64,000 bases of DNA. Source: Golubevia sp. BC0850 (lineage: Eukaryota; Basidiomycota; Exobasidiomycetes; Golubeviales; Golubeviaceae). Below the pieces are notes generated by a model. The model made no database searches. It was given only the letters and a program-made list of their open reading frames with translations, and had not been told where the DNA came from. The position numbers and the translations under genes are program-made. Below are positions 27,948 through 52,235 of this stretch, piece after piece. The stretch covers positions 496,001 through 560,000 of the forward strand of contig JAAVVG010000002.1 in assembly GCA_012976225.1 (NCBI GenBank), in the 5' to 3' direction. Positions within the stretch are counted from its first letter, which is position 1, and the number at the start of each line of letters is the position of its first letter.

Positions 27948-28098
27948 CCAGGAATAGAGTAGTTATGACTAAAATGGCAGAGACCCGAAAATTCTGCAAA
28001 GAGTGAGCGACTTGGAATTTGGACGAGTGGAAATTGGAACGTCACGTCGGATCCTTCTCTCCCACCACACCCTCACCAAGTAACTCAAAACTCTAATA
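27948..28098. promoter_or_regulatory. Divergent promoter of the AlkB-like gene and SUMO
   Basis: Only 151 bp separate the two start codons. The segment next to SUMO includes CCACACCCTCACC-type C-rich sequence. No TATA box is evident. Confidence 0.45.
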
Positions 28099-29136
28099 AT
28101 GTCAGACCAAGAAGGATCAGTCAAACCAGAAGGAGGTGAACAATTAAACATCAAAGGTGAGAAGCAACAAACAAAGAGAGAGGGCTTCTCTAGAGTAGCG
28201 TGGATCACAACTTTTTGCTCACCTCATCTCCTCATCTCAACTTCTCACAACCAGTCCGTGATGCCGATGGACAAGAAGTCTTCTTCAAAGTGAAGCGCTC
28301 TACCAAACTGTCAAAGCTAAAGAAGGCTTACGCTGAGAGAATGGGAAAGCCAGGTAAGCTCTTCTTCGAAAGCTCAACTTCTTTATCTTTCCTGGCAATG
28401 CTTGGCTGACTAGTTCTCTCCCCTGCTTTCGCTTCCTCCTAACATTTTATTTTTTTCCATTTGATACCATATTTGCTTCCTATAGAGAACGCGTGAGTGC
28501 CGAAGCTTAGAGTTGGGTCGACCTTATTTGGTTGTTGTCCAGATTGAGTGCTGAGTTCTACCATTTCCTCCCAAACTTTGCGCTCTCATTCACGCAGCGT
28601 TCGTTTTGTTTACGAGGGAAAACGTATCGGAGATGAAGATACTGCCGATTCTGTGAGTTCCGCTACTGAGAAAAGGTCGGAGAAAAGGGCAAGGCATGGT
28701 CGTGAGGAGAGAGCGTAAGCTCAGAGCGGGACGTGGAGGAAAGGTGCAAAAGCGATGCAAACGCATGCAGCAGAATAGCATAGGCTGGTTGGAAATCAAA
28801 CTTGCTGCCCAGGTCTTTGATCGAGTCCGATTCTGAGATGGTGTGGCTGGAGGAAGCTCAGGGAGAGAAAGGGCCCTTTGACAGCCCTTCCGTCATTACC
28901 CTTTACTGATCTCTCCGTACATTTCCCTCAACATCCAACCAAACTCTAATTTACTCTACAATATAGCTCGACATGGAAGGTTAGTAGCACTTTCTTCTTT
29001 TTCTTGTTCTCACCGAAACCCCTTCGATTACACTGTGAAGCTCACCTTTTCTAACTCTTGACCTTACTTCTCTTGCACAGATCAAGATGAAATTGATGCT
29101 ATGATTGAACAGCTGGGTGGATCAAGGTTATGCTAA
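28099..29136 (+). CDS. SMT3: SUMO (small ubiquitin-like modifier) precursor
   Basis: Six exons (28099-28156, 28255-28353, 28486-28492, 28598-28652, 28967-28979, 29081-29136) sum to exactly 288 nt, or 95 aa. The product begins MSDQEGSVKPEGGEQLNIK, continues with the SUMO core (GQEVFFKVKRSTKLSKLKKA, ERMGKPENAVRFVYEGKRI, SLDMEDQDEIDAMIEQLGG) and ends with a four-residue tail, SRLC, after the Gly-Gly that Ulp-type proteases expose. SUMO is conjugated to lysines of nuclear proteins. KPE near the N-terminus lacks the classic hydrophobic-K-x-E context. Two exons are extremely small, 7 nt and 13 nt. The family assignment is certain, and the model is supported because only these junctions restore the conserved protein. 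Confidence 0.97.
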
Positions 29137-43819: not shown

Positions 43820-45668
43820 ATGCAAAAGATGCCAACTTCAGGAGAATACTTTGACTCTTATTTGGAAGGAAAGGTAGATCCAGATGCTATCTTGATTTCC
43901 GTCAAGCTGCCAAACGATTCCATCCTGACATCTGAAATCAGACTTCAAGTTGAACTGAGCGATGGTGAGTCTCAATCTTTACCTCTTGCTGCATAGTTTA
44001 CTCTGAGATACTGTTCTGAGCTATCTATCACTCAGTCTGTACTTGTAGCTACCAGCGGCTCCTCCTGATTGACGTCCATCCCAACTTCTCGACTCCGGCA
44101 GTCTTCGAATCCATGGAGCTAGAGCAAGATATCAAGGATCTGAAGATCTACTGTGGAGCACGCAGGTTATTTCCAAACAAAAGTTTAGGTGAACTCGGTC
44201 GAAGACAGGAGATCGAATCGATCTGTTTGGGAGGAGCGAAGAGGTTCTCATCCAGGTACTGGAGTTTGGCCTCGGCCACATCGCCACTCACGATTTCAAG
44301 GTGGGGCTTGACCGCTTCTTTACAGTCCAAAGTCGTCAGTCCTGTGCTGTGTTCAGATCCATTGTTCTTCGAATCGCTGCGTAGTATCTTCTGGCGCTCA
44401 GTGCTGGTATGCTCCTCTCTCCGACAGTGCTTTGGCTGTAGAGAATCGAAGGCCGATTCCAAGGAACTCTAGCCTACAAGAACATCAATGTCTCATCGAA
44501 TCCAGCTTTGACTCTTCACTCGCTAGGGATCAAAGGACCTGCCACTCTGAGCTTCTACCACAAACTTGTTAAACTCAACCTTTCTATTCCTCGCCTGGAC
44601 GGTCTTAGTCCTTCGAACAAGAAGATCAAAATCTCAAAAGCTGACAACATCAACAAATTCAAGGTCAAGATTCTCGGGACCCAGAAACCCTCCCTCAACC
44701 CCATATTCTACCAACTGACTAACGGCGGGTATCTGAACGAAACATGTCGATTCGGTGAAACGGACCTCAAAGATGGAGACACTTTACATTTAAAGAAAGC
44801 ACCTGACGAAATCCTTCTTCGTATCTTCGTACCTGATCTTTCCTTCTTCTTTGAGCGTGTGAAGCTCGCGAGCACGGTGAAAGCTCGTGAGTCTTTTGAA
44901 ACCAGATCTTAATTTGTCAGTTTTACCAATCCACTCTTCTCCTTCCCTTCAAATGTGGCAGTCAAGGTTCTGGTCTTGAAAAGAGATATCCAGTCTCTCA
45001 ACGCAGATCTTGAGGTTCAAGTTCAAGGCGACGCTGAGAGACGAGTCCTACATCGCTGAAGCTCTCCAGACCTCATCCGGCGAAGAAGTCAAGGTGCATG
45101 TTGTTCTGAAGAAATTCAGCATCTCCATCTTCAATTCAATCCCCTCTAAAGAGCTGAAGATCGAAGTCAACTGTGCTGATACGATCAGGCAGGGTGAGTC
45201 AAAACAGGGCTCAAAACTTTACCCTCATCTGCTGTGTTGACATTTTGCTCCCTCTCCTTCTCTTCAGTCAAAAACAAAAATCCTGCTCAGATCGAGATAC
45301 CTAGAACCGCCCAAAACCTTGATCTTCGCGGAAAAGTTTTGTTAGACGAAGACGTTCTCCGTGAGAAACGGATCGGAGAAAGAAGTCATCTAGGTTTAAC
45401 TGATGGTTATGAAGAACATTTCAAGATAATTATCAGACATTGCGAAACTAGAGAAACGTTTCACTCCGAAATTCGTCCGAGCACCAAGATTCATAAACTC
45501 AAGATCGCAGAAGTATTTCGTTTGCAAGGTTACTTTACTTTATTGTTTGAGGGAAAAAGGGTAAACTGCAATGACACTCTGCTGGATCATAACATGGAAG
45601 ATGGTGATTTGATTGACTTGTTTCCCCCTCAAGAGCACACGGCGGATGCAGGTGCAATTCTAAAATGA
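43820..45668 (+). pseudogene. Array of about six ubiquitin/SUMO-like domains, frame-broken
   Basis: It begins MQKMPTSGEYFDSYLEG in exon 43820-43964; a phase-1 intron to 44036 restores DVHPNFSTPAVFESMELEQD. I see repeated beta-grasp halves. Opening strands recur as ILISVKLPNDSILTSEIRL, EEVLIQVLEFGLGH, LVKLNLSIPRLDGL, EILLRIFVPDLSFFF, VKVHVVLKKFSISIF and HFKIIIRHCETRETFHSEI. Closing halves are KSLGELGRRQEIESICL, ALTLHSLGIKGPATLSFY, CRFGETDLKDGDTLHL, LRDESYIAEAL, LLDEDVLREKRIGERSHLGL and LLFEGKRVNCNDTLLDHNM with EDGDLIDLF. Further introns (44887ish, 45195ish) fit. At least two places (~44,230 and ~45,010) need a frame change without good splice sites, so I call it a probable pseudogene. No Gly-Gly conjugation terminus is present; it ends GAILK. 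Confidence 0.55.
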
Positions 45669-45929: not shown

Positions 45930-49062
<3,133 letters not shown>

Positions 49063-51929: not shown

Positions 51930-52235
51930 GAGTTCTTTAGGGATCAAGGGCTCCGTAACTCTCTGCTTCTATCATCAGGTTATCAAGCTAAGCCTTTCCA
52001 TTCCTTGTCTTGAGGAAACGTTTCCTTCTAACAAATAGGCCAGAGTCTCGCTGGGAGACAGACTTGGTGATTTCAAGATCCAGATACTCGAAAGATACTC
52101 AAAACGCATTGCCCTGCCCTTGATCCGATTTCCTATCGTTTGATAGTTTGATTCGCCAGACGGGGTTCGTCGATCTGGATGAAGCTTCTCGCTTTGGTGG
52201 AACAAGTCTCAAGGATGGAGATGCGCTGCTCAGTC
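51930..52235 (+). pseudogene. Relic of one unit of the ubiquitin-like array
   Basis: Translated pieces match the third unit of the array at 43820-45668. LCFYHQVIKLSLSIPCLEE parallels LSFYHKLVKLNLSIPRLDG, PSNK is shared, DFKIQILERYSKR parallels FKVKILGTQK, and ASRFGGTSLKDGDALL parallels TCRFGETDLKDGDTLHL. The nucleotide match is also visible, for example TAGGGATCAA at the start of both. The pieces lie in different frames with stops between them, so this is a dead partial duplicate of the host array and is more decayed than the array itself. It covers about one domain plus the end of the previous one. Confidence 0.65.

Follow-up and report, generated by a model that had tools for sequence, protein, structure and literature searches.

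Genes that encode ubiquitin in arrays are the classic example of repeats that stay similar to one another, and diverged polyubiquitin-like genes are found in Arabidopsis. Ubiquitin folds can also act without Gly-Gly conjugation, as in OASL, and ISG15 and FAT10 are fused pairs. In the present study we analysed a gene of six diverged units in Golubevia sp. BC0850, located on the forward strand at 43820-45668 of a stretch of 64,000 nucleotides (hereafter the window; 496001-560000 of the 1.88-Mb contig C22, in an assembly of 25.77 Mb and 64 contigs). With a probability that we put at about 0.72, this gene is a dead copy of a multicopy family derived from tandem ubiquitin genes, whose intact members would have been uncleaved six-domain chains that likely bound ubiquitin-recognising proteins while unattached.

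Several described systems come close in one respect or another. The ubiquitin of Plasmodium likewise escapes the usual conservation: diverged forms are found in ribosomal fusion genes, polyubiquitin is under concerted evolution, no pseudogenes were detected, and a six-unit diverged array is not described in the parts available (PMC10457151). Hub1/UBL5 is a ubiquitin relative that works by non-covalent binding, i.e. a ubiquitin fold acting without Gly-Gly conjugation, though not one of six units (PMC8431670, PMC4141198). Functional variants are expressed from UBBP4, a human pseudogene of ubiquitin (PMC7066184), and thus a ubiquitin gene that looks broken should be called silent only on the strength of RNA data. 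In human UBC, splice sites lie between units (PMC10809524), whereas the introns of the array described here lie within them.

The window gene starts from an ATG at 43820 and has five exons and four introns; the units are ~70-80 residues each, six in this gene, compared with one or two in Hub1/UBL5, ISG15, FAT10 and OASL. Its parts are as follows (kb positions of paralogues refer to C22 unless another contig is named; dN/dS is the ratio of non-synonymous to synonymous divergence).

43820..43964 (+), exon 1: contains the start, a leader of 21 residues and unit 1 up to its middle; the start region is conserved in the paralogue at 293 kb (dN/dS 0.21)
43965..44101 (+), intron 1: phase 1, GTGAGT..CGGCAG, in the codon of unit 1 equivalent to ubiquitin Val26
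44102..44324 (+), exon 2: completes unit 1 and carries the first half of unit 2; the frame breaks at ~44200, where the 293-kb paralogue has a single frame
44325..44441 (+), intron 2: weak donor GTCCAA (GTAAGT in the 293-kb paralogue)
44442..44886 (+), exon 3: completes unit 2 (second half, to ~44567), holds unit 3 (~44568-44804) and opens unit 4 (first half)
44887..44961 (+), intron 3: phase 1, GTGAGT..TGGCAG, in the Val26 codon of unit 4
44962..45193 (+), exon 4: completes unit 4 and opens unit 5 (first half, from ~45115); the frame breaks at ~45014
45194..45267 (+), intron 4: phase 1, GTGAGT..CTTCAG, in the Val26 codon of unit 5
45268..45668 (+), exon 5: remainder of unit 5 (to ~45416), unit 6 (from ~45417), a tail without Gly-Gly or Cys-x-Cys-Gly, and the stop

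An earlier note on this DNA had proposed an array of about six diverged units here, and such an array is present, with 478 codons free of stops in its in-frame pieces. The note had set short introns between the units; they fall inside the units instead, and three of the four share the form GTGAGT...AG in phase 1 with lengths of 74-137 bases. Part of the string KSLGELGRRQEIES that it quoted was read beyond a frame break. At least two frame changes lacking splice support had also been claimed, and two were found, at ~44200 and ~45014; the 293-kb copy reads through the first, and the copy at 283 kb reads through the stretch homologous to the second. Given these two unsupported frame changes and one weak-donor intron, the window copy is most likely a pseudogene. 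In general layout the array resembles polyubiquitin genes, with predicted ubiquitin-fold units (units 3-6 by profile, units 1-2 by position and intron) placed head to tail in one frame and introns at a repeated within-unit position.

Testing the units one by one, units 3-6 are ubiquitin-like by profile. When family profiles were aligned to ubiquitin with hhalign, the probabilities were 90.0% for unit 3 (9 rows), 89.6% for unit 4 (7 rows), 98.0% for unit 5 (9 rows) and 94.0% for unit 6, the last profile being built from the three most diverged copies only, and none of 60 column shuffles reached the score for any of these four units. An earlier set of profiles, in which some residues were assumed, gave 89.5-99.9% with 0/100 shuffles. 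At expectation values (E) up to 1, Pfam matched ubiquitin in 5/9 rows of unit 3, 6/8 of unit 4 (one row of which is canonical ubiquitin) and 9/9 of unit 5, and Rad60-SLD in 4/9, 6/8 and 1/9, respectively. In the window copy itself, spliced unit 5 matched Pfam ubiquitin at 7e-7, above the cut-off, with no match to Rad60-SLD; unit 6 was also matched, and Pfam scans of the other six pieces of this copy matched no family. Moreover, the alignment of exon 5 to linear polyubiquitin chains spans the junction of units 5 and 6 in register, with 3.8e-14 summed over repeats, no single stretch passing alone, and 1.4e-6 for tetra-ubiquitin. Unit 1 matches the unit 6 profile at 85.6%, and from their position in the array and their introns units 1 and 2 probably share the ubiquitin fold. 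It is likely that all six units descend from ubiquitin.

The earlier note took the units as ubiquitin/SUMO-like, and a functional scaffold of SUMO-like folds would accord with two observations: unit 6 of the window copy scores slightly better with Rad60-SLD (8e-7) than with ubiquitin (1.2e-6), both above the curated cut-offs, and unit 6 of the 293-kb copy ends in EQTG, like SUMO itself. As an ancestry, however, SUMO is not supported. Profiles favour ubiquitin, Pfam ubiquitin is matched by unit 5 and by most units of the paralogues, the last units at 240, 830 and 916 kb and a single unit at 651 kb are plainly ubiquitin by eye (at 830 and 651 kb also by score), the introns match those of a ubiquitin gene, and the reading frame is broken. 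A working SUMO-like scaffold is thus highly improbable, and the family is very likely a decayed one derived from ubiquitin rather than from SUMO, as far as sequence comparison can tell.

Introns carry a further trace of ancestry. Across the array copies, an intron splits the Val26-equivalent codon in phase 1 in 20 of the 26 junctions tested; among the six others, one peptide was not found and five had no fitting pair of phase-1 sites. Phase-1 introns in the Val26 codon are also present in both units of a ubiquitin-ubiquitin-AN1 gene at C11:2096-2097 kb, whose zinc finger is matched by Pfam AN1 at 9.4e-11. In the main polyubiquitin gene, a four-unit gene on C33, introns follow Gln62 in phase 0, and in the ribosomal fusion at C11:1301 kb residues 2-71 are free of introns. 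An extra phase-1 intron in the Tyr59 codon was found in the last units at 240, 758, 830 and 916 kb and on C34 and C1, and in the 651-kb single unit. These positions are most simply explained by descent from ubiquitin units that carried introns at Val26, and the AN1 gene would be the best candidate donor seen in the genome. It differs from the array in that its two units are canonical (at least 99%), and in array exon 5, which extends to the stop, Pfam found no AN1 finger.

At the C-terminal end, Gly-Cys-x-Cys-Gly occupies the place of ubiquitin Gly75-Gly76 at 240, 293, 344 and 830 kb, in the 651-kb single unit and on C1, and the 916-kb copy ends in Arg-Cys-Ala-Cys-Gly. Among the nine copies whose last unit reads to its end, seven have the Cys-x-Cys-Gly end and eight have Cys at residue 76, unlike polyubiquitin; the unit at 831.7 kb has this Cys but reads ECPYG, and that at 758 kb (GGACG) is the sole last unit keeping Gly-Gly. 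Also unlike polyubiquitin, and in line with the Gly-Gly end reported missing in the earlier note, the tail of the window copy has no Gly-Gly, and none was seen at the ends of units 1-5 in the pieces read. Without Gly-Gly at internal unit ends the chain would stay uncut, and conjugation through Gly76 would be impossible without processing; known ubiquitin biochemistry thus suggests an uncleaved, non-conjugated chain. Copies with a near-canonical last unit and the Cys-x-Cys-Gly end resemble natural non-conjugating ubiquitin variants. The Cys-x-Cys-Gly end may have had a role, for which metal, disulphide or lipid are candidates. Past Cys-x-Cys-Gly-Cys, the copies at 240 kb and C1:498 kb, on different contigs, have a common longer tail with a DLPWE motif.

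Six-unit or partial six-unit copies were found in at least 14 places, 11 of them on C22, which makes up 7.3% of the assembly (P 9e-11 under random placing). These counts are lower bounds, since the genome search scores only its best candidates.

240, 283, 293, 344, 541 (the 43820-45668 gene), 548 (also in the window), 758, 830, 878, 916 and 919 kb of C22: family places on this contig
C34, C32 and C1 (498 kb): family places on other contigs
651, 752 and 831.7 kb of C22: single-unit relatives
51934..52228 (+) of the window: the 548-kb member, a decayed fragment of units 2-3 with four lesions (better query)

The copy nearest to the window gene has 72% DNA identity with it. The 49 readable units come from 13 of the 14 places, and every one of them is closest to the unit of the same position in another copy; mean identity was 0.34 for the same position across copies, 0.17 within a copy (polyubiquitin units, in contrast, are near-identical) and 0.16 otherwise. 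This set leaves out the whole 548-kb place, the single-unit copies and units too decayed or diverged for confident reading, including unit 4 at 293 kb, units 1, 2, 4 and 5 at 240 kb and most of C32. Accordingly, divergence of the six positions came before duplication of the whole gene, which took place without homogenisation of the units. At 878 kb the copy breaks off in unit 4, and what follows is similar to the 3′ flank of the 830-kb copy, suggesting that a larger duplication underwent an internal deletion. The single-unit copies at 651, 752 and 831.7 kb have upstream sequences that are alike by eye; the first ends in LLGCACGQ-stop and is lesion-free, the second is truncated, and the third ends in ECPYGQ.

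Selection was estimated in 20 pairwise comparisons of in-frame segments, 16 of which gave a usable synonymous divergence (dS). In 15 of these 16, dN/dS was 0.14-0.41 at dS 0.62-1.92, so by this measure the copies are sequences once under purifying selection. Ordinary birth and death of ubiquitin pseudogenes, in which no novel protein was ever made, would leave broken ubiquitin-derived copies too; against it stand the common six-unit layout, the position-specific divergence, and dN/dS values (0.14-0.41 at dS 0.6-1.9) which show that the protein was kept in use while the copies diverged, and we judge it very unlikely. The decayed copies might also be a reservoir of sequence from which gene conversion supplies an expressed copy, in keeping with many broken copies on one contig and long past purifying selection. 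However, no intact full-length copy was found in genome searches, the compared segments are 43-78% alike in protein with dS at least 0.6 except for one short segment (0.16), and recent conversion is not evident; such a reservoir seems to us extremely unlikely.

Lesions were counted by frameshift- and intron-aware alignment, and the figures given are those of the better-scoring of two queries. At least two frame breaks or stops were found in 12 of the 13 family places scanned (10/13 with the other query), the exception being 344 kb, a 3′ piece beginning in unit 4; the count was 2-6 in places having any, with 0-4 in-frame stops per place. The copies at 541 and 830 kb were aligned to their own models, with X at the breaks, so that breaks there rest on hand reading. 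The C1 copy, outside this census, gave 0 and 3 lesions with two queries, and by eye its units 4 and 6 are off the preceding frame. Lesions differ among copies in kind and mostly in place, although 916 kb and C34 have a common lesion call at the junction of exons 3 and 4. The neighbouring Prp43/DHX15 gene, directly downstream in the window (~45930-49062, -, six introns), served as control and was free of lesions with both queries used (84% and 74% identity; 779 and 726 codons aligned). The earlier note's suggestion of a dying gene is thus supported by the two breaks and weak donor of the window copy, and by the contrast of the family with Prp43.

One may still ask whether the gene is functional after all, its apparent breaks being due to faulty sequencing or assembly or to splicing that escaped notice. 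The strong purifying selection between copies and the low lesion numbers would fit such a gene, but Prp43 next to it is lesion-free and the window has open frames of 1007, 959, 747, 688 and 658 codons, with one of 902 codons around the 293-kb copy; moreover, the lesions vary between copies and include in-frame TAG, TGA and TAA. We consider an intact gene unlikely. The time of loss was approached by simulation. With neutral change of 0.31 substitutions per site, which is half the silent distance from the window copy to its nearest relative, 10.5 stops were expected in window-like sequence (95% range 5-16), and with 0.01-0.05 substitutions per site 0.4-2.1 stops. Few in-frame stops compared with the neutral expectation mean that constraint was lost late, in nearly all copies, and the stop count suggests a recent loss of function, ~0.01-0.05 neutral substitutions per site ago for most copies. 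There are two ways to read this: the family recently ceased to be needed in the lineage or strain, or a working copy escaped the search.

Taken together, our preferred account runs as follows. A ubiquitin gene carrying introns at Val26 would have been duplicated in tandem to give the array, whose cleavage and conjugation would have ended when its Gly-Gly ends were lost. The six unit positions would have diverged, and the whole gene would later have spread to at least 14 places. Lined up in a fixed order, and with the last one closest to ubiquitin in several copies, its six ubiquitin folds would offer several ubiquitin-like faces to ubiquitin-binding proteins, and the once-intact chain may have acted as decoy, adaptor or scaffold, before most or all copies lost function recently. 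A scaffold of non-conjugated folds, as the earlier note had suggested, is plausible for this once-intact protein. More speculatively, one fungal lineage may have made a ubiquitin array gene into a family of six-ubiquitin chains that were not conjugated and ended in Cys-x-Cys-Gly; the family would have spread along one chromosome, been selected while diverging to dS near 1 and then been lost in nearly all copies at about the same time. Such a rise and fall in a single lineage would be expected of a ubiquitin-mimic system in conflict with a parasite, a mating partner or an incompatibility partner; this is possible, though we would not expect it to prove right.

If the decayed-family account is correct, a whole six-unit array escaped homogenisation, and its positions diverged and stayed distinct through copying to at least 14 places before decaying. 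The unusual part is the combination of position-fixed divergence, expansion on one chromosome and near-total recent decay, and it makes a testable case of ubiquitin units losing cleavage and conjugation and gaining fixed-order use in a single chain. Even ubiquitin, which ranks among the most conserved proteins, can likely give rise to a new gene family that is later lost.

A number of observations weigh against this account of a ubiquitin-derived, recently decayed family. Units 1 and 2 are weak against ubiquitin: the unit 2 profile reaches 2.4-8.5%, with 0/60 shuffles twice, once only just, and Pfam matched 0/3 of its rows; for unit 1 the profile reaches 8-9% (shuffles 0/100 and 0/60), and Pfam did not recognise ubiquitin, with one of five rows matching Ubiquitin_5 at 0.19. 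AlphaFold2 predictions from single sequences of exon 5 and most of exon 3 were unusable (predicted local distance difference test, pLDDT, 34.1 and 37.3). The intron in unit 2 of the window copy is not a clear Val26 phase-1 intron and unit 3 is intronless, and the Val26 intron could derive from any ubiquitin gene carrying it. In the window copy, at 283 kb and on C34, the end is reached without the tail motif. As regards selection, dN/dS between the window and 293-kb copies over 40 codons of units 1-2 was 0.87 (0.28-4.04), and silent sites were saturated in 4 of the 20 comparisons. In 7 of the 13 places scanned (283, 344, 548, 240 and 919 kb, C34 and C32) identity to the better query was 33-38%, at which false lesions are possible; in a control with canonical polyubiquitin (37% identity) a single false frameshift appeared, at the alignment edge, with none inside the units, and the AN1 gene gave none. 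Lastly, long purifying selection fits oddly with lesions in nearly every copy.

Searches for relatives of the array were made in proteins and in the literature. With the window model, none of 7995 scored candidates, those sharing most words, matched at E 1, i.e. no orthologue; for the 830-kb model (residues 1-400), E up to 1 was reached by 2 of 5755 scored candidates (0.05 and 0.35), both of them multi-ubiquitin proteins, not orthologues. This protein search depends on five-residue words in common, and broken genes go unannotated in the database, which does include near kin: among the best 120 of 7636 matches to Prp43, the named protein of highest identity is that of Exobasidium rhododendri (86%), and those of other Ustilaginomycotina are ~80-82% identical. 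By E-value the top two of these matches are an insect and a fluke entry, at 64% and 62% identity; the placing of the organism near Exobasidium (Exobasidiomycetes) therefore relies on identity. An intact orthologue in relatives, for which the earlier note had proposed a search, was thus absent from the scored protein candidates, and its statement that no named protein has this layout held within the reach of these word-based protein searches and of a literature search, which found no fungal diverged ubiquitin array. An unnamed database protein of 498 residues (P0002) has several diverged ubiquitin-like units in a row and is of similar length; it matched at E 0.35, with 24% identity over 43% of the query, and it shows that diverged multi-unit ubiquitin-like proteins occur elsewhere.

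Some minor observations may be added. A Crinkler N-domain match (0.022) in one of eight unit 4 rows was dropped as too weak, and an Rfam scan of the window returned no match. Weak matches to ubiquitin or Rad60-SLD, below the Pfam cut-offs, were seen at C22:1064 kb, C22:1074 kb and C63:69.5-70 kb. A gene of SUMO type (FFKVKRSTKLSKLKKAYAERMGK ... VRFVYEGKRIGDEDTADS) lies in the window at 28084-28633 (+) and corresponds to the 524-kb match of the Rad60-SLD search.
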